Origin: Acanthamoeba sp. SK_2022b
Taxonomy: Eukaryota; Discosea; Longamoebia; Acanthamoebidae
Reading direction: 5' to 3'
NCBI GenBank assembly: GCA_027943245.1
Contig: JANDJZ010000155.1
Span: 1-54,978, forward strand
Length of the DNA stretch: 54,978 bases
The notes beneath the pieces are model-generated. The model searched no databases. It was not told where the DNA came from and worked only from the letters and a program-made list of their open reading frames with translations. Positions 19,320-31,472 of this stretch are shown here, piece after piece. A program made the position numbers and the translations under genes. Within the stretch, counting starts at the first letter, position 1; every line of letters begins with the position of its first letter.

Positions 19320-20454
19320 TCACTTGTTTGCAGACGACGAAGTTTCGAGGCAGTGGGCAAGCCAGCCGCGGCCGCTCTTGTGGCGGCCGCGCACGATCTT
19401 GAGCATGCCCACCAGCCCGTTCGCCGCTTCGCGTTCGTCGAACAGGAAGGCCTCCTTCTTGATCACTTCGGCTATGTGATCTATGTGCGCCATCACAAAC
19501 TCGCAGCACTCGGCGCCCTGGCTCTTGCACGCCACTTCGATGGTCACCAGGTCCTCGGGGACGAGGTGCAGCGGCGACCCATGGGCGCAGGCGCACGATC
19601 CGATGATGTGCTTGACGTAGCCGTCGATGAACCCGCTGAGCATCAGGCACACCGGCGAGGACGCAGCGCTGCGCCTGCCACTCGCCTTTTTCTGACCCTC
19701 GTCCTCGCTGTCGTTTTCGCCTTCGCTGTCGCCGACATCGTTTTCGTTCTTTCGGGCGCGCCTGCTGAGGAACTCAACGGCCTCGACGCTCTGGGCCACG
19801 CTGATCTTGAGATAGAACGTGGACGACGATGACGATGACGACGAAGAAGACGACGACGAAGGCGAAGGTATCGTAGTCGACACGCCGTCGTCACCACCGC
19901 CGCCTTCGCTCTCTCCCTCGGCCTTCGCCTTCGCCTTCTCCTCGCGACCACCGAGCGACCGCAGGAAGTCGGCCGAGAACGAGAAGTTTACCAGTCCCCA
20001 GCCCGTCGAACTGAGAATGGCCGAGAGGCCGAACAGGCGCTCGAGCAGGGCCAGCCTGGCCCGCACCCGCTCCGCGTGAGAAGCGGAGACTACCGCGTTG
20101 TGATGCGTCGGCAGCGACGACGTAGACGAGGTGAGGGACACCGACGCCGACGATGAAGATGAAGATGACGATGACGACGATGTCGCAGGCCTGGACATGC
20201 GCGATTCCAGGTGAGCGCAGTCCGATCTGCCGAGGCACTGCCCGAAGTCGAAGAGGAAATTGTCGACAAAGGTCTTGACCTCGGGCTGGGCCGTTCCCCT
20301 CGGGAACAGGCTCTCGACCGACTGCAACATTCGGTCGGTTAGCCAGCCAGTCAACTTCTTGTGTGTACAATTGTTTGTGTGTTGTTGCGAACCTGTCGTA
20401 ACGTCACCGCCAATCCTTCAGCCCGCAATAGCACATAACGCTCGGAGGCCTGAG

Positions 20455-20530
<76 letters not shown>

Positions 20531-21464
20531 GAGTAGCTGACGCGAGACTACAAAATGTCGACAAAGAGCTTACCGGCTTCCTCGACTTGCGGCGGCGAGC
20601 GTAGGACGGCTTTTCAGAGAGCGTGATGATGCCCTTACGCACGTCGCCCTTCATGTGGTGAAACACGTTGCGGTATCGCGACACGCACATGTCCTCCAAC
20701 CGCAGCAGCTTGGCGCGCATCCGCGTCTCCTCGGTCAGCAGCTGCTCCTCCCCGCCTAAGCCCTCGGCGCCTTCGATCCGCTGGTCCTCGTCCCTGTACT
20801 TCTTAAGGAGGCTGAACTCGTCATCGTTCTCATCGTCGACGTCGACCTTGGTCGTGTTGAGCGTAAGCGACACCGAGAGCCGCTTGTTGCGCCACGCCGT
20901 CGTTGTCGACGTCCCGGCCGATCGCAGCTCGTCGAGCAGCTCGCTGCCGCCCGCGGCTGCGGCGGACGTCGACACGAGGTCGCCCACGCCGTGCGACGTC
21001 GACGTGGGGATGGCGTCGCCGCTGCTACTATTGCCGGCGGCGGCGCTGTTGGCCGTCTTCTTCTCTTGTGCGTTCTTCTCACGCCATTCGCGAGACCACA
21101 GCACGCCCTCGCGTTCCAACACCTCTCGCCTTCGCCGATCGTCTGATCAACCAATTGCACTCGTCCAATCAGTGGGTCGTGTGCGTGTGCGTGTGCGCGT
21201 GTGCGTGCAAATACCAAAGTTGTTCTCGGAGAAGAAGGTGAGCAGATGACGTTTCATCATCTGCGGCGGAGCGATGAGGAATCGGCAACACTCGTCCCTG
21301 TCATCGCGAGCAAGATGTTGCCGTGAGTCAGTTCACTCTCAAGTGAAATGAGCCGAGCATTGCACTTACCCATTGGCCCGGCACAGGACCTCGACAGCGA
21401 GCACGTCCAACCCAAGACACGTCTCACACCAGCCACTGCGAAGTAGCGACATTCATCAGCTGGA

Positions 21465-21543
<79 letters not shown>

Positions 21544-24500
21544 CTGTCAGGTTACCTGATGTAGCCGGCGTTGATGAGGCAGCAGGGCCCGGCGGTCCGC
21601 ATGTCCCGCTCCTCGCGCTCCTCCTCCTCCTCGAGCGACTTCTTCTTGGCCGAGTGGAGGATGAAGCTGCCGCGCCGCCTCTGCTTCTTCTTCCGCTCCT
21701 TCTCCTTGTCCAGCTTGGCACGGTCGACCGACGCCGCCGCCGGCGACGGCATCTGCGACGCCGGCGATGTCGACAACGACGACGCCGACGATGAGGACGC
21801 GGAAGAAGCCGCGGGCGTGGTCGCTGCCGCGGAGGAGTCCTGAATCTCGAACGAGTTGTTGAAGTCGCACAAGAAGTAGAAGTTGATCTCCTTCTCCTTG
21901 CTGCCGCTGCCGCTGCTGGTGCTGTCATCGACGGGGATTGGCGAGGCGCGTCCAGTCGCGCTGCTCGTGTTGCCGCCGGCGGTGGAGGCGGTGGGACTGG
22001 TGGAGGCGGTGGTCTCACCAGATGCCTTCTTGTTGGGGATGGGCCGCACGAGCGACGCGCCACGGCCGACCGGCTCGTCGTCCTTGTGCGGCGGAGGCGG
22101 CGGCGACTGCTGCTGCTGCTGCTTCTCGTTGGCAGCGCCCGCGCCGGCCCGGAAATTGATCTTGCGTGAGAGCAGCGACTGGGGGAAGACCTTGACGAAG
22201 CTCCAGCCCATGAACGACAGCTGCAGGAAGCCCGACGCGATCGATATCTCCGTGTCCCGGCCCACTGTTTAGGTGTAGTTGTACTTGTGAGCCAATGGCG
22301 GACGTGCGTGCGTGTGTGCGTGTGTGTGTGTACCTCCAGAGGGAATGAGGGCAGAGCTGGCCTCGTTGGAGGACGGGAGTAAGATCATGCTGCCTCGTCC
22401 CCGCTTCCACGAGGGGAGCAGGTGCTGACCGACCGACGCCGTTGCACCTGCGGCGTTCGTCGCATGCGACGAGGACGCGCTGCTCGAGGCGCCCGCGAGC
22501 GCCGTGGCCGCGCTGCCGGTGGCGTTGCCGGTGAGGGCCTGCTGCTGGATGGCAAGAGAGAGCAGAAGCCCTGCGCGCTTGGTGAACAGCTGGGCGTCCT
22601 TGCGGCCGACGCTGCGCGCGAACGTGTAGACGAACTTGCGCTCAAAGTCGCGTTTCTGACGCAGCGCCGGCGGGAGCGAGGGATAGTAGGGCCGGGCCAA
22701 GGTGGGCTGCAGCGACGAGGACGACGACAGCGACGACGACAAGCCGGGCGCCATCGGCGATGACGCGGAGGAGGAGGCAAAGTCGTATGCGGTGACGGTG
22801 GCCGATCGTCCGATGCGCATCTTCTCGGCCTCGTCGGAGATGAGCTTGCGGCGCGGCGTGAGCAGGGGGGCGCTGGCGCCCGAGGTCGACTGATGTCTGG
22901 GCAGGAACCCGCTGTCGTCGGCCGCTCTGTCGCGACGTGTGCGCTTGCCCGATCCACCGGCGGCGGCGGGGCCGTTGGTGGCGGAAGAGGTCTCGGGGCT
23001 GAAGGGCTCGACCAGGCTGCGGCCTTTGGCCTTGGCCTTGCGCTCGGCCTCGTCGTGGGCCATGATCTCCCTCGTGGGCGTCTCCAGCGACGCCGACAGC
23101 CGCTTCCACAGATTGGATATCGAGCTGTGGACACCAGTTAGTGATCGCAACGCAACGCAACGCAACGCAACGCAACGCAACGCAACGCAACGCAACGCAA
23201 CGCAACGCAACGCAACGCAACGCAACGAAACGCATTGTGCTTTACCTGAAAGAATTGGCCGACTCGGGAGTTTGCCGAAGCCAGGAGTTGGTCGTCCCGC
23301 CACTCGGGACGCTCCGCTCGCTACTCGGCCGAGGCACACGACGATCAGAGACGTTGGACAACAGTCGTATGAGGGGGAAGGGCTGGGGCTGAGGTACCTC
23401 GAGTTGCGCTGGAGCGGGGGTCGGCTGGTGGGCGGCGCCGGGGTGTCCGTCGACGCGTCGCCCCCTGCTGGCGGAACCGAGATCGACAGCGGAGTGATCG
23501 CTCCCGCGCTGCCCTTGCTCGCGCTGGCCGCGGCGCTGGTGGCTGCGGCCGCGGCCGAGAGGCCGAACGTGTTGGTCACCGCATTCAACAGCTCGTCGTG
23601 GAGCGACGAACTCCTGGTCATGGGCAGAGTTGTTTCAGCGATCGCTCTGCTATCACGTTACGAGTGGTGGCGGTACTCACCGTAGTAGGAGATAGCGATC
23701 GTCGAGGATCTTGACGAAGCCCAGCTTAGACGACTGATCATGGGCGAGAGAAAAGGAGTCAAATACCAAACGTTATAAATAAAAATAAAATGAATGTAGA
23801 GGTCGTACGTAGGTCATTTGGGTGAAGAACTTGTCGACCTGCTGCTCGGCGAGGGCGAACAGCTCGGTCATCTTGGCCGAAGGAGCGGCGCCTGATATGA
23901 TTATGCGCACAAGTCGTGAGGCACTCGAGGGCGCCACAGAGTGAGTCGCGTGGTACACGCACCCTTGCATTCGTGGGGCGTCGTCGAGGCGGGCGTCGCA
24001 GTTGCCGGCGTCGCGCTGGCGATCGTGTTGAGCAGCAACGCGCTGGTGCCTCTGCATTCGCGTGCCGCGTGCGTGAAGATAAAGAAGGGCAGGCGTTGAG
24101 AGCTGCCCGGCGCTCACCCACGGCAATAGCATGCACAGTGGCGTTCGACGTACCTCCGCTTTCGGTCCTTGGCGTTGGCGGAGCGGCTCGACCGCTTCCT
24201 CGGGCTAAGGGCACCGCCCGACCCCGGGAGCGAAGCCTGCGTGGCGAACAGGTTGATGATGGCCAACGATGTCTCCGTGTTGCTGCGCTGGTGCTGCTGG
24301 GTTGGGCGCGGCCGCGAGCCCTCCACGGTGTCCTTGACGCTCGCTGCGACGACCTTGGTCACCGCCTTGGCCAGGGCCGTGAGCTCCCTCAGCTGCTCAT
24401 CGTCATTGTCGCCCTCGGTCGACGTGGTCGCGGCAGACATGATCGGAGTTGATGGGGCCGCAGGCTGGGCGCCAGCGGCGTTCTCCAACTCCGACTGCGC

Positions 24501-27103
24501 GTTCGGCTCCGGCTCGGCAGCAGAGACGTTGTTGGCCTGCAGAGCTGTGGCAGCCACCACTGGGGTCAGCGAGCCACTATGGTCGCCCACGTTGGCATCG
24601 ACTTGGTTCTTCTCCGCGGCCGCCGGGACCGGTGCCACAGCCTCGCCCTGGACTGCGGTCGCCTTGTCCCTGCTGGCCAAGACCACGGAGTCATCGGACT
24701 TGGATCGCGGCATTGCACTGTCGACAGCCTGAATGATGCGGCTCTTCTCCTTCTTCTTGCGCTTCTCCTGTTTCTTCTCCTTCTTCTTGTGCTTCTTCTC
24801 CTTCTTCTCAGTGCTCGGCTCAGCCTCAACCGCCACCACGCTCTCCTTCACCTCCTTCACATTTTCCTTTTGCTTTTCCTTCGTCGTCTGATCCTTTTCC
24901 TGAGGAGTTGCAGGCGATCCCTCCTGCTGCTTGGGAATGTTGGTTAGGCTAGACGTGCGCTGCAGCCACTTGGTGGAGCCTTCCTTGACCCGCTGAATTC
25001 TTGTCGACGCTGTACGCTTCTTGCGCTTCTCCTTGGCCTGAATTACGGCGGCGGCGGCGGCCACAGCCGCATGTTCGCCGCTGCCGTAGACAGACGCAGC
25101 ACGAAGGCGCATCGTGGCTTCGCTGTCGCTGTCGCTTCGCTCTTTGTCGCTTTCGCTTTCGTTTTCGCTCTTTGTGAGGCCAATTGCAGCGGCCGTGGCG
25201 ACTGATGTGTCCGAGGACGAGTAGCCCATCATCATCGCCATGCGCTCCCGTTCCTTCTCCTTCTCTTGCGCGATCGGGAATCCGTCGCCAGAGTGGTGTC
25301 GCTTGACGTCTTCCTCGCCCTTTGACCTCCTATTTCTGTTTCGGAGTTAAGGCTCGAGCTTGCACAGTAAGCGGAGCTAAAAACACACACGTACCGCAGA
25401 GAGCCGAGGAAAGAAGTCGAGGGAGGCGAACTCGATGGAGGAGACGAGGAGGGCGAGGACGACGCCGACCCCGTCGACGAGGCGCTCCGGACCGAGTACG
25501 AGGTCGATCTGAACAGGAACGAACGACGCTTGGCCGTTGGGCTGTCGGCCGCGTTCTCGGTCTTGTCCTTGGTCTCGCGGATCTTGGCCGCCCGGCGCTT
25601 GAGCATCTCGTCCAGCGCCGATTCCCTTTTCTTCTTCTTGCGGTCAACCTCCGTTTCGGCGGCGGCTGCGGTCTTTGCCTCATTCTCGTTGTTGCTCTCC
25701 TCCCTCGTCACGCCTACAGCCTCTGTCTCCCCGTTCGGCATCTTCTTCTCTTTGGCCACCTCCCCAGCGGGTGGGCCATGGCTGCCCTTGTCTTCCTTGC
25801 GCTTACGTTGGGGCGTGCCCGGCGAGGATTCGACCGAAGACGCTTCGCCCACGGCCTTGTCCTTCTTCGCCTTCTTTCGCTTCTTCTTTTCTCGGCTCTT
25901 GGAGGATGCCTTTCCTTCTTCGTTCTTTTTCCCCTCCTTCTCTTTCTCCTCCTTCTCCTTCTCCTCGTCCTTCTCCATCGTCTTCGCTCTTTCGTTCACA
26001 GTAGACAATTCTTCGCTCTTTCTCGCCCCCACTTCGCCGCCATCGGTGGTCGGCTCGGTTTCATCGGCGGCTGCACCTGTCGGCTGTCGCTGCTCGCCGA
26101 CCTGCGGGTCCTCACTCTGCTCCGGCGCCGCCGAGTCCATGGCGCGCGGACTGGGGTAGAGCTGCTCAGTGAGCTGCATCAGTTCGAGCTTGAGCTCCTC
26201 CAGCTCCTTCCTGCGCCGCATCTCGCGCCTCTTCTCCCGCTTGCGTCGATGTTCCTCGGCTTCCTTCCTACGCGCGCGCCTGTCCTTATGCTTCTTCTGC
26301 TGTTGCTGAGGCTGGCCACCGTTGGCCGCGCCCGAGTCCGGCTCGCTCTGCTGTGTAGCCACCTTAAGGCCAAGAGAGTCCTTCAAGCGGCCATTATCGA
26401 CACCGCTGTTCTTGACGCCTTCGCTCGACGACCGTATGCCGCTGCCGGCGCCTCCACCCGACGATCGAATGGCACTGCCGCCACCGGACGAGCGAATGCC
26501 GCTTCCCGATGACGAGCGAATGCCGCTTCCCGGTGCTGAGCGAATGCCGCTACCCCCGGAAACCGCGTGGTTCTCGTCGGCTTCGAAATCGCCAAAGGCG
26601 TCATCACTGTCTGAGAACTCCAGGGTGTCGATCGAAGCGCTCGACAGGCTGTCGTCGAGATCGTCGTCCGAGAATCCGCCATCGGTAGTGTCCTGTTTTT
26701 TGGAGGACAGCGTAACACGGTGTCACGATCTCAATTGCACAAATCAGCAGATCACGAAAAAGTTGGTTACCGTGTTGGTGATCAACGTCGAATCGGTGCC
26801 GTCCGACGTTTCAGTATCTTGTTCTGTCGAGTCCATTTCTGTCGACCTATGCGCACGTGTGAACGCATTAGCGCTAATGTGAGGTGTGTTGTGTGAAGCA
26901 GCGCAGACACGTACATTTCGGAGAGGTTGAGGTGTTGGGCAGTCGAATGGTTGCCCCACACGGAGGGCTGTTGTGAGCACGAGAACGCGTACATGGCCTC
27001 CTCATCGATGTACTTGAGATGCATCAACATCGCACTCACCTTCGGGTTGCGGGTCAGCCCATACGGTGTCGCCTTCACCGAAAACAAGCCGGAATGCTGT
27101 CAG

Positions 27104-27201
<98 letters not shown>

Positions 27202-29282
27202 CCACTCAACTCAACTCACCACCAGAGACACAGCCACACCGCACACATACCTGACATTGGAGCATGTGCTTAATCTGCTGATGAAGAAGCTGCAGCAATT
27301 CGAAGTTGATGTTGCCATCAGGCAGATAGGTCACGTTGCCCTCTCGAATGAACGTAAGATCCTTGAGCAGCAAAGCTGCATACGTGCGTGCGTCAGATTC
27401 GAGCTTCCGCATGTTTGGCGATTGCCATTAAGGTCGTACCAAAATAGGGAAACTTGGGTGGAGGTCGCTGGTTGGTGGCGCGGCGGCACTGGATGAAGTT
27501 TTGCTGCGGCGCCATGACCTCCTCGATGGCCCGGAATTGTACATTGAAGCGCTCCGGCAGAGCCTGGAACATGTGAGAAATGAAGAAAATAATGAAGGCG
27601 AAGCTTTCCCATTCATATTTACCTCCCAGAGTTTCTTCAGGCGCACGATCGAAGAGTTGTTCAACCCGGAGAGGATTTCCATCGTCGAGTTAAAGTTGTT
27701 CAGCAACAGGCACTCACGGGCGAGCTGTCATTGAGAGGGCGGAGTGGAGTCGTCAGGCAAGCTGGCCCACGCAAGCACACGCAGCTTCCCATACCTCTAT
27801 GAATTTCTTGAGCACAGAGAGCTGTTCCTTGGGTTTGCTGAGAAGAATGGAAGAGGCCACCCAATAGGACACCTGATCCAGTACAGCGGTTGGACTCATG
27901 GTATCAAATAGGAATTGAAGCCACGCCGAGTAAAAAACATGTGAAAAGGCGCACCTCGTTGAATCGGGCGATGATGGCTTTGATATTCTCCGCCTGCGCC
28001 TTCCAGCAGTAGGACAGGAGCTCTCGCGGCGTGACTTTGCTGAAGATGTCAAACTCGATCAACGTCAACTCCCTGGCGTTAAACGAATGGCGTTAGTCAG
28101 TTCGGGCCTGCTATTGTGAATTGCCCTGGGCGGCCTGGGGCGTGGAGTACCGCGCCAACTCCGCTGGAGAGATGTCGAGAATACTGAACGAGCTTTCAGT
28201 AGTGCCATCGTCCCTCCTCTCTGCGGCTGTTCAAGACGGGTGAGGTACTCGTTTTCGCCGCAAAGAAAAGATGAGAGCGAACCTCCAGAAGCGAGAAAGC
28301 GAGACGACCGAGCACGATGGCTTTTGACGAACAGCAGCTTGAGTTCGTTCACCACGGCCATTCTGCAAACACATTTTGGCATACGCATGGAATAAATCGT
28401 CAGCTCAGACGAGCTCGGCCAAGTCGCGGGTAGGGAGGTTACCCAGAGGGTAGCTGGTCTTTGTAGGCGGTGATGTTGTTGATGAGTTTGGTAAAGGTCA
28501 CGGTGGAGAAGTCCTCGGGATAGTAAGACATCCAGATCCGCAAGAAGTCCACCATCCTGCCCACATCACCACCGCAATACGGTTAAACAGTTGGCAACAC
28601 GAAAGGCTAGATGTGGTGTGATGTGATGTGGCGTCTGTGCGTTGATGACGGGAGAGACGGGCACCTCTGAGGCAGAGTCTTCTTCACCTGGCGCACCACC
28701 TCGGCGCCCTTTTCCTTTTCACACACCTTGACGAACCTGCGGCGTTTCCCAGCCACGACCGAGGTGAGCAAAATGGGGTAGCAAATTGGAGAGGAATTAT
28801 CGTACTGCTGGATCCACAGGTTGCATAGGGTCGACGAGTGCTTGGTCAGCTGGCGATAGCACAAAAGGAACGCCTCCTGGTTGGCTGCAGCGTTGGGGGA
28901 AGCATAAGGATGCTGGCAAAGAAATAGCGAGATAGCGAAATAAAAGACTACAAAAATAAACAATAAAAGAAAGAAAGGCAGCTCCCGAAAAGTGTTCACC
29001 CACGAGAAGAACGAAAGCGACGAGAGGCGGAGTTAAAAGCAAGAGGGGGCTACCGATGGAGATGTCAAACATCATGCGCCTGGCAAGACTGGCAAAGGCC
29101 TCCTTCTTCGTCTTCTTCTCCGTAGTTGCCTCCGAGGCAGCTTCGTGAGGAACTTCGGGTATGGCATCCGTTGACGCCGACAACGATTTCTGATCGTTAC
29201 CACCCACATCTCCTCCCGTTAACTCTCCTCCTTCTCGAGGCTCCTGCCCCTTCTCCGGCGGCGAAGACGTCGCCTCCTCCAT
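19320..29282 (-). CDS. RasGEF protein with two C-terminal V4R (4-vinyl-reductase-type) domains
   Basis: About 25 exons on the minus strand, with every junction I tested in phase, give roughly 2,500 aa. In order: an acidic N-terminus; RasGEF_N (QEAFLLCYRQLT, FLRIWMSYYPEDFSTV); a complete RasGEF catalytic domain (ELTLIEFDIFSKVTPRELL, VSYWVASSILL, NNFNSTMEILSGLNNSSIVR, LLLKDLTFIREGN; 28080-26930); a long low-complexity linker (26700-24170) with SGIRS repeats and Lys/Glu tracts; then V4R domain 1 (22268-21240: FLQLSFMGWSFVKVF, AVEVLCRANGDECCRF) and V4R domain 2 (20324-19320: SSTGWGLVNFSFSADF, TIEVACKSQGAECCEF). RasGEFs load Ras with GTP. V4R modules bind small hydrophobic ligands and zinc in bacterial phenol sensors. 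The pairing suggests ligand-controlled Ras activation. No internal start, stop or promoter was found, but a split into two genes around 24.1 kb cannot be excluded without transcripts. Confidence 0.72.
20455..20530. repeat. (GTT)n trinucleotide repeat in RasGEF-V4R intron
   Basis: About 25 uninterrupted GTT units on the plus strand (AAC on the sense strand). It sits after the GTAAGC donor of the exon ending in RRRKSRKP, so it is intronic and not a coding Asn tract. Confidence 0.9.
21473..21541. repeat. (CA)n microsatellite in RasGEF-V4R intron
   Basis: Pure CA array filling much of the intron that splits V4R domain 1 just before its zinc-ligand segment. Confidence 0.9.
23146..23229. repeat. 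(CGCAA)n pentanucleotide repeat in RasGEF-V4R intron
   Basis: About 16 head-to-tail CGCAA units ending in CGAAACGC. It lies in the intron between the exon ending LQRNS and the exon starting SISNLWKRL. Confidence 0.9.
27121..27200. repeat. (CA)n microsatellite in RasGEF-V4R intron
   Basis: CA array with one GACA interruption, next to a CT-rich tract (27104-27120). On the sense strand it reads TG followed by AG. Confidence 0.9.
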
Positions 29283-29522: not shown

Positions 29523-30897
29523 ATGCGCCGGTGCGCTGCGCCTTGTGCGAGAGCAAGAGTCGCAAATCGCAAGCCAACATTGCGGCTCGGTGGCTGGGCC
29601 TGCTTGCGGACGATGTCATCCGCAGCCTCCGGCAGAGGTGCGCCGCAAGTCTCGTATGACCCGAAGGAGGGCACGGCCGTAATCCAGCCCAAGGCAGGGA
29701 AGAAGCACACCGCGACCGTCCTCTTCATGCACGGACTCGGCGACACTGGTACCCTCCCTGCCGTATAGATATTTACCTATTTCTTTTGTTTCTTTTATTT
29801 TACTTGATATTTTATTGCGGCAGCCATGGGGTGGATGGACGCGATGCACTTTGTCTACGAGAGGCTGGCGCAGGAGGGCCACCCCACCCGCTTCGTGCTC
29901 CCCACAGCGTAGGCCTTCACCGTCACAGCACCGCGGCTTATGTTAGCGCTCTGATGACCTTTACTTCCTTCTGCACGCAAACCTCAACGGCCACGCAGGA
30001 AGACACGTCCCATCACTATCAACGGTGGAATGAAGATGCCCGGATGGTGCGTACTTGTGTCTTGCTTTCCATCCTCTGTTGTGGTGGCCACGTTCAGGAC
30101 TCCTGGCTGATATTCATTTTCGTTTTTTGTCAACTCACAACATTACGTTTTTAATCTTAACTTTATGATCACTTACTAAAAAGGTATGACATCACCGGCC
30201 TGGACGAACGAGCCAAAGAGGACTTTGACGGCATCGAACAGTCGTATGAAACTGGTGCGCCCTGCACTCCATTTTCTTTCAAATCTGCTATGATCACATA
30301 AGTCTTTAGCCGCGCTCACACATCATTATCAACATCTCCGTCATGTTCGCAGTGTCCCGCATCCTACGATCGGAAATGGAAGAGGAGGGCATACCATCAA
30401 ATAAGATATTCTTGGGCGGCTTCTCCCAGGTGCCCTGCCTCGCAGCCTTCATCTCATCTGTCCCACTCGCCCTAAATGTGGTCATGGGCAGGGCGCGGCC
30501 ATGGCCCTGTACTCGTGCTACTTCAAAGAGACGCAGACCCTGGGCGGCGTGATCGCCCTCTCCGGCTACCTCCCCTTCGCCTACCAAGCCCAACAGGTGC
30601 TCTCCCCCCGCTTGCGCGTGGCCTCTATCGCCCAACCCCGTGCTCACCTATGGACAATCGCCCAACGATGATGCACTGCAGTTGGTGCAGAAGCAGAACA
30701 AGACGCCGCTGTTGATGTGTCACGGTCTGGACGATGGCGTGGTGCTGTACCCGTGGGCGAGGAGCAGCTTCGACCAGCTCGGGAAGTGCGGGGTGGAGGG
30801 CCAGTTCAAAACCTACCCCGACCTCGCCCACGGCGCCTCTGAAGAGGAGCTCGACGACGTGCTTGCCTTTCTACGTCAACAACTACAGTCCAGCTGA
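29523..30897 (+). CDS. Acyl-protein thioesterase / lysophospholipase (APT1/2-like)
   Basis: Seven phase-consistent exons (29523-29748, 29824-29908, 29999-30046, 30184-30254, 30353-30429, 30492-30596, 30682-30897) give 275 aa. The alpha/beta-hydrolase landmarks are all present: the oxyanion segment VLFMHGLGDTG, the PITINGGMKMPGWYDI block typical of APTs, the nucleophile elbow GFSQ-GAAMAL split by an intron after Gln, the acid in CHGLDDGVV and the His in DLAHGASEEE. APTs remove palmitate from membrane-anchored signalling proteins such as Ras and G-alpha. The family is usually about 230 aa. The extra 30 or so residues at the N-terminus are Arg/Ala-rich without acidic residues, like a mitochondrial presequence. 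Starting at the second ATG (29611) would give the cytosolic size. Confidence 0.92.
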
Positions 30898-31472
30898 AGC
30901 CAATGAGTGTTGGTATAAAGCAACCCCATTGGGCATTGTCTTTGTGTTAGGGGGGGGGGAGCGGAGGGAGCAGGTGTGCCCCTCCACACTAGCAAAAATT
31001 TGGAGTCGGCCGTCACGTGCTCTCCCTCTCTGGACAGCTTCGTGAGGAGCAGCCCAAAAGAAGAAGCGCGGCGACCAGAACTCAAGGTAAGTTACGAAGT
31101 AGCACTGTGAGCCTAGCGGCGCGTTCCTCTCAGAGAGAAACGCAACAGCGGCAAGTGCGATCAATAGGTGGTGTGCTAAAGCTTCGACGGCTAAACTCGC
31201 CTATTTGGCTTCGCCATTATGGGACGGCGTTTTCGTCTATTGATAAGCTGCGTAGTTATTGGTGCGCAAGAAGATATTCTTGCTCCACAGAGAGACCTGT
31301 CTGTGGGTGCGGGTCATTCATCGCGTACCACGCCTCAGAGAGCGGGACGGATTCATGCTTCGTCGGACACAACTGAACTGCCGTTCTGGCCCCACTCTCC
31401 TGATGTCTGAGTAGAGGTCTGATCGTTCTGGCTCCACTCTCCTGTGGTCTTCTGATCTTTCTTTTTTATTCT
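30898..31472. other. Intergenic stretch, no gene seen
   Basis: Between the convergent thioesterase and secreted-protein genes. It holds a short G run (30950-30960) and an imperfect direct repeat of a CTCCACTCTCCTG-like unit (about 31382-31407 and 31424-31450). No RNA gene or coding frame could be supported. Confidence 0.6.

Follow-up and report, generated by a model that had tools for sequence, protein, structure and literature searches.

The window analysed here, a stretch of 54,978 nucleotides from Acanthamoeba sp. SK_2022b, carries on its minus strand a single spliced gene that joins a CDC25-type RasGEF domain, through a long charged linker, to two C-terminal V4R sensory domains of bacterial type. 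V4R domains are known mainly from bacteria and archaea. While the domain order can be read directly from the gene, ligand and gating are suggested by comparison with known sensors. The reading that we favour, and consider on balance probable, is that of a cytosolic sensor in which the V4R pair would respond to an apolar ligand and gate Ras exchange.

Table 1. Features of the RasGEF-V4R gene, in window coordinates (aa, residues of the spliced protein)
Feature	Position	Strand	Basis
Whole gene (RasGEF, charged linker, V4R1, V4R2)	19320..29282	-	spliced frame, GT-AG introns, gene finder
RasGEF_N (REM)-like region, aa ~78-163, exons 2-3	28443..28882	-	Pfam RasGEF_N, below cut-off
RasGEF catalytic domain, aa 213-382, exons 5-10	27299..28161	-	Pfam, 190 bits; PDB RasGRF1 and Epac2
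KDLTFIREGN segment, aa 361-370	27335..27364	-	aligned with RasGRF1 and Epac2
Long charged low-complexity linker, exons 12-16	23809..26846	-	open frame, third-position GC
V4R1, aa 1371-2022, with large low-complexity inserts	21222..23703	-	Pfam, 30.8 bits (C-terminal piece alone); MopR/DmpR alignment
V4R2, aa 2216-2527	19440..20446	-	Pfam, 24.2 bits (exon 26); relative P0009; alignment
C-terminal tail KIVRGRHKSGRGWLAHCLETSS, aa 2541-2562	19335..19400	-	near-identical in relative P0009

The hand-spliced model runs from a start codon at 29282 to a stop codon that ends at 19320, and its 26 exons encode 2566 amino acids. All 25 introns are of the GT-AG type and 56-180 nt in length. Each of them either contains an in-frame stop codon or has a length not divisible by three, so that none can be left unspliced without losing the 2566-residue frame. 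The first-pass annotation had described a single minus-strand gene with splice phase kept at the junctions tested, which agrees with this open frame and with the unbroken call of the gene finder given below.

The RasGEF domain was recognised by PF00617 with 190 bits (cut-off 23.1), and positions 1-178 of the 181 profile positions were covered. In the PDB, it matched RasGRF1 (2ije, E 2.8e-30) and Epac2 (3cf6, E 1.2e-29); the KDLTFIREGN segment is taken by us to be part of the catalytic helical hairpin. RasGEF_N was found at the expected position, but with a weak score of 15.3 bits at aa 80-145, which is below the cut-off of 28.3. Hence, the full RasGEF domain claimed at first pass is supported, whereas the claimed RasGEF_N is a weak match. 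A search with the RasGEF region in a protein database of poor eukaryote coverage yielded one fungal RasGEF as the sole match.

Exons 13 and 14 of the linker contain no stop codon in the frame used, compared to 5-13 in the other two frames, and show a third-position GC of 0.75 and 0.78 against 0.49-0.60. No Pfam match at E 0.1 was obtained for the linker (aa 477-1338). Direct contact between RasGEF and V4R1 is not a given because the two are separated by about 990 residues.

Both V4R stretches jointly reach 38.2 bits with the Pfam V4R profile, which is above the cut-off of 31. Taken singly, the C-terminal piece of V4R1 (30.8) and V4R2 in exon 26 (24.2) score below it, so that the first-pass identification stands for the pair and falls short for each domain alone. 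When compared with eight bacterial DmpR-like loci using hhalign, the V4R profile gave a probability of 96.6 (E 6e-10, 149 columns, query columns 5-164 of 179); the value was again 96.6 after correction of one V4R row, and 86.0 (E 5e-6) with only the two V4Rs of the window gene. Judged by these alignments, the V4Rs are full-length and colinear with the whole DmpR-type sensory domain. The PDB matches were MopR (E 1.6e-11), CapR/DmpR (E 1.2e-8) and PoxR (E 5.7e-7). AlphaFold, applied to exon 26 with an alignment of ten rows, gave no usable model (pLDDT 48.2).

Residues were counted in seven V4R domains from four genes of the genome, aligned to MopR/DmpR. The zinc-site residues Cys/Glu/Cys/Cys (MopR Cys155, Glu178, Cys181 and Cys189) are kept in all seven; by alignment, the putative ligands are C1967, E1990, C1993 and C2001 in V4R1 and C2458, E2495, C2498 and C2506 in V4R2. 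Both glycines of the pair at MopR 160/164, in the helix close to the first Cys of the zinc site, are likewise present in 7/7 domains, and the pocket positions of the window gene are mainly apolar. Of the residues that anchor phenol, Trp occurs in 0/7 domains and His in none of the six that could be aligned at this position, one more being gapped. Phenol held in the known way is thus rejected as the ligand. At the position of MopR Tyr176, a smaller residue is found in all seven domains, which suggests a different ligand. A pocket that has ceased to bind anything would likewise be consistent with the loss of both anchors.

The same combination occurs elsewhere in the genome. Two further RasGEF genes on other contigs bear V4R downstream, and a fourth gene (C671) encodes a RasGAP followed by two V4R domains, so that, with the window gene, V4R is found on three RasGEFs and one RasGAP. 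The GAP domain of this fourth gene is nearest in the PDB to neurofibromin-type RasGAP, from which the gene differs by the two V4Rs after it. Together with the open frame and the domain profiles, the paralogues with the same order support the claim that RasGEF and two V4Rs are joined in one gene. Among the relatives, the V4R cores are conserved and the inserts drift; for V4R2 of the window gene, identity to relative P0009 is 47%. In a small tree, the V4R2s cluster at 0.898 (0.937 after correction of one row, 0.779 on the C-terminal half), which suggests that the V4R pair may predate the split between GEF and GAP genes. That the V4R-bearing RasGEFs are one another's nearest kin was not supported, as three other RasGEF loci resemble the window gene to the same degree (39-42% vs 38-41%).

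In the ligand-sensing reading, the two V4Rs would probably pack as a V4R homodimer made internal to one chain, with a presumed zinc ion stabilising each core. An apolar small molecule, perhaps lipid-like or aromatic and other than phenol bound via His/Trp, would enter the V4R pocket, and the altered pair would lift or impose a block on the RasGEF, whose target is presumably Ras. Such a block would be analogous to DmpR, where the sensory domain is described as restraining the output, an ATPase, until phenol binds (PMC7264223). The amoeba V4Rs share with the sigma54 AAA+ regulators DmpR, MopR and PoxR the full-length domain, the zinc-site residues and mostly apolar pocket positions. They differ in the missing phenol anchors, in the presence of two V4Rs per chain and in the output, where RasGEF or RasGAP takes the place of the AAA+ ATPase; Pfam searches covering aa 1-476, the linker and the V4R region gave no AAA+ match. 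A ligand-gated Ras exchange factor, as put forward at first pass, is plausible with regard to the whole-domain match and the zinc site, but the phenol-holding residues are lost.

A small-molecule domain and a RasGEF on one chain are also found in Epac (cAMP, RapGEF) and in Dictyostelium GbpC, reported to be activated by cGMP (PMC3188802). The Epac2 catalytic domain is among the PDB structures closest to the amoeba RasGEF domain. However, these proteins carry a cyclic-nucleotide domain, whereas the amoeba gene encodes a C-terminal V4R pair. The Dictyostelium RasGEFs (25 genes) likewise form a large amoebozoan family with unusual partner domains; those named in the account consulted are LisH, DEP, cNMP, GRAM and F-box, with V4R not among them (PMC1273635). 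The literature searched contained no paper that combines V4R with RasGEF or V4R with RasGAP.

In amoebae, movement and feeding are governed by Ras. The presence of the V4R pair on RasGEF and also on RasGAP suggests that Ras activity may be under the direct control of small molecules. We tentatively propose, as an extension that we consider rather doubtful, that Acanthamoeba Ras is under receptor-free chemical control: an old bacterial-type V4R pair, possibly acquired from bacteria, would have been joined to RasGEF on-switches and a RasGAP off-switch, and hydrophobic compounds, e.g. from prey bacteria, would set Ras both ways. If true, a bacterial-type small-molecule sensor would directly control both activation and inactivation of Ras without a surface receptor, and bacterial-type V4R would have a place in eukaryotic signalling, its distant relative Bet3 aside. 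Such a protein would offer a natural Ras switch for research and application, and with it the coupling between chemical cues and amoeba movement and feeding could be clearly tested.

The main alternative, which is possible but in our view unlikely, is that the V4R pair serves as a dimerising or tethering scaffold in the manner of Bet3 in TRAPP and, sensing no free ligand, recruits RasGEF and RasGAP to a membrane or partner. The common fold and ancestry described for V4R and Bet3 (PMC2253512), the lost anchors of the known phenolic ligands and the long linker are consistent with this role. However, the V4R sequences are closest to ligand-binding bacterial sensors, and all zinc-site residues are kept, whereas the site is described as replaced in mouse TRAPPC3 (PMC10933270). 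Identity as a TRAPP subunit was rejected: Pfam TRAPP was unmatched up to E 1 (up to E 10 for the V4R1 piece and exon 26), and the TRAPP matches of the genome lie on other contigs than the RasGEF-V4R gene. The genome scan gave a fifth V4R match, a weak one (C1000), just past two TRAPP matches that share its strand; it probably belongs to the neighbouring TRAPP gene.

Control of Ras by redox state or metal, sensed via the zinc-thiolate site, appears improbable. The conserved zinc-site residues are in keeping with it, and in the archaeal regulator MsvR, redox-dependent DNA binding is reported to be tied to V4R cysteines (PMC3729527). Zinc in MopR-type sensors is, however, described as keeping structural integrity (PMC10715001), and metal as the signal, considered at first pass, is less likely for this reason.

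The continuity of the gene was assessed with a home-made gene finder, its codon table derived from exons 2-11 and 20-26 only and its splice tables from all 25 introns. A single unbroken gene over 19320-29282 was returned at intron penalties of -7, -9, -11 and -13. According to the first-pass annotation, transcripts with a stop and start between 26.9 and 22.3 kb would speak for separate genes; a break forced within this interval costs 4-8 nats at a start penalty of -8, and nothing at 0, where the gene finder is undiscriminating. That two adjoining genes, or a faulty model, were taken as one is highly improbable and the two-gene reading was rejected, because the cheapest break, at 23,650 in intron 17 and free of cost only at zero start penalty, would split V4R1 in two, and the same domain order recurs on two other contigs with shorter linkers. 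Scanning the start region for sigma-70 promoters, a model unsuited to a eukaryote, found nothing. At intron penalties of -7, -9 and -11, the gene finder extended the gene upstream to 30936.

The RasGEF gene on the minus strand can be read as a chain of exons coding for RasGEF, a charged linker and two V4R domains (V4R1 and V4R2). All 25 introns have GT-AG borders and range from 56 to 180 nt, with a median of 75 nt. Each of them either shifts the frame or contains an in-frame stop, so the 2566-aa frame needs all 25. The claim of the first-pass annotation that splice phase is kept at the junctions holds. Third-position GC in the used frame is 0.75 for linker exon 13 and 0.78 for linker exon 14, compared to 0.49–0.60 in the other two frames, which contain 5–13 stops. 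Long simple repeats (TG, TTGCG and CAA units) were seen by eye inside several introns.

Features of the window
Feature	Position	Strand	Remarks
RasGEF-V4R gene	29282 to 19320	minus	26 exons, 2566 aa, stop-free spliced frame
Linker exons 13 / 14		minus	1298 / 1182 nt; 0 stops in used frame
C-terminal tail KIVRGRHKSGRGWLAHCLETSS	19335-19400	minus	outside V4R; nearly unchanged in metagenome protein P0009
Intronic simple repeats	27100-27200, 21460-21540, 23140-23250, 20450-20530		by eye
Predicted acyl-protein thioesterase-like gene	29613-31090	+	Abhydrolase_2, 134 bits
Cytochrome P450 gene	14044-15990	+	148 bits

A small gene finder was built with a codon table from exons 2–11 and 20–26 only; the test is not independent, since the splice tables took in all 25 introns. 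It predicted one unbroken gene across the span at intron penalties of −7, −9, −11 and −13, and its exons agreed exactly with the hand-spliced ones in 21 or 22 of 26 cases. At all of these penalties except −13, extra upstream exons were added, reaching position 30936. When an intergenic point was imposed in the 22.3–26.9 kb stretch and the start penalty was set to −8, the cost was 8 nats at an intron penalty of −9, 6 nats at −11 and 4 nats at −13. The best forced break, at 23,650, lies inside intron 17 and would split V4R1. The earlier proposal of a single gene agrees with the unbroken prediction. A forced break was free of cost with a start penalty of 0.

Pfam profiles run on the spliced protein, a check proposed in the first-pass annotation, recovered RasGEF (190 bits, cut-off 23.1) and V4R (38.2 bits across two stretches, cut-off 31). 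The V4R cut-off is reached by the pair only, since the single domains score 30.8 and 24.2 bits. RasGEF_N was weak (15.3 bits) and stayed below its cut-off of 28.3. The linker (aa 477–1338) gave no Pfam match at E 0.1. Closest among solved RasGEFs were RasGRF1 (E 2.8e-30) and Epac2 (1.2e-29), followed by RalGPS1, RasGRP1, CDC25 and SOS.

When the genome that holds the window (44.9 Mb on 1129 contigs) was scanned exon by exon with Pfam V4R, five candidates came up, located in the window and on contigs C671, C785, C109 and C1000, none of them above the cut-off as single exons. On C1000, the candidate lies just past a pair of TRAPP matches in the same orientation. On C785 and C109, RasGEF exons are located ahead of V4R on the same strand. 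The C785 piece scored 196 bits for RasGEF and 25.4 bits, under the cut-off, for V4R; this contig stops too early for a complete second V4R. C109 reached 49.4 bits for V4R over two repeats.

Contig C671 features a RasGAP followed by two V4Rs (locus L002, C671:12500-22499). The RasGAP scored 25.3 bits in the gene-finder model, 38.6 bits with its neighbours in the genome scan and 64.7 bits when spliced by hand (cut-off 28.3). This domain is closest to neurofibromin, and the arginine of its LREDSL motif aligns with that of neurofibromin FRGNSL, the catalytic finger. Upstream of the RasGAP, a resemblance to a thioredoxin-like gene was noticed by eye.

A local V4R profile matched 9 of 59 loci (E up to 1), all from the four V4R genes, and gave no match in the other 50, from which an intron-split V4R could escape. 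Nine of these 50 are stretches that follow further RasGEF matches on their downstream side, and three of the nine belong to the RasGEF loci with the greatest similarity to the window gene; most other RasGEF loci were covered with short flanks or left out. A RasGEF (PF00617) scan gave 160 exon matches in this one 45 Mb genome, which is a very large RasGEF family. The genome is called Acanthamoeba-like here on the strength of a profilin exon that aligns closely, from end to end, with profilin II 1f2k of Acanthamoeba castellanii (E 1.3e-74).

Seven V4R domains from the four genes were aligned, with inserts omitted and some joints set by eye, resulting in ten invariant columns. The profile found the bacterial phenol sensors MopR (E 1.6e-11), CapR/DmpR (1.2e-8) and PoxR (5.7e-7), and weakly archaeal MJ1460 (E 0.0086). 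Compared with a profile built from eight DmpR-like loci of bacteria, it reached a probability of 96.6 (E 6e-10, 149 columns), and again 96.6 with one doubtful row corrected; the two window V4Rs alone yielded 86.0 (E 5e-6). Cys155, Glu178, Cys181 and Cys189, in MopR numbering and matched here by residue letter only, are retained in all seven domains, as are glycines 160 and 164. His106 was found in none of six aligned domains (one further domain is gapped) and Trp134 in none of seven, its position being polar (His, Ser or Asn) in some paralogues. Tyr176 is replaced by a smaller residue in all seven. According to two published accounts, three cysteines and one glutamate are zinc ligands, and His106 and Trp134 grip phenol (PMC10715001, PMC7264223). 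Judged from the alignment, the phenol clamp is gone from the window gene, because the anchor positions carry Leu/Phe in V4R1 and Leu/Val in V4R2, and the putative zinc core stays.

The V4R2s cluster in a seven-domain tree with a support of 0.898; once the doubtful row is corrected the value is 0.937, and the C-terminal half gives 0.779. Grouping within the V4R1s is weak. Since the V4R2s group together, the pair may tentatively have arisen before the GEF and GAP forms separated, as far as seven short, divergent sequences indicate. A search with the RasGEF region returned one fungal protein only, in a protein database with few eukaryotes. The V4R profile returned seven metagenome proteins, which we read as probable exon-level relatives of the four genes. 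Exon 21 is 54% identical to P0008 and 41% to P0007 over the aligned stretch, and exon 26 is 47% identical to P0009, tail included. The contigs listed for P0007 and P0009 are both 3441 long, which suggests a single contig. V4R cores are kept among these relatives and inserts vary. The tail is nearly constant compared to P0009, although neighbouring sequence drifts.

The sensory domains of DmpR are described as a tight dimer with a proposed restraint on output until phenol binds (PMC7264223). The two V4Rs of one chain could form such a dimer inside the protein; an apolar molecule might shift the pair and thereby change RasGEF availability, and the linker would transmit restraint or localisation. 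An apolar molecule acting via the V4R pair on RasGEF would be the most economical reading. Earlier work describes GEFs controlled by cGMP (GbpC, PMC3188802) and cAMP (Epac, PMC1273635), whereas the window gene carries V4R as putative sensor. This sensor appears to be new, as does its use with GEF and GAP alike. No paper in the PMC library that was searched joins V4R with RasGEF or RasGAP; the architecture may be listed unremarked in subscription journals or in domain databases such as InterPro. Co-mention of V4R and 'guanine nucleotide exchange' in that library concerned Asgard proteins only. Among the matches listed, papers with V4R and 'amoeb' had other subjects by title, and those with 'V4R domain' named no eukaryotic Ras regulator in their titles. 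V4R is absent from one searched Acanthamoeba castellanii genome/RasGEF paper in PMC, and a term search of the main text of the Acanthamoeba genome paper found neither 'V4R' nor 'RasG' (PMC4053784).

The thioesterase-like gene stands head to head with the RasGEF gene, with predicted starts about 330 bases apart. Acyl-protein thioesterase-type enzymes strip palmitate from Ras.
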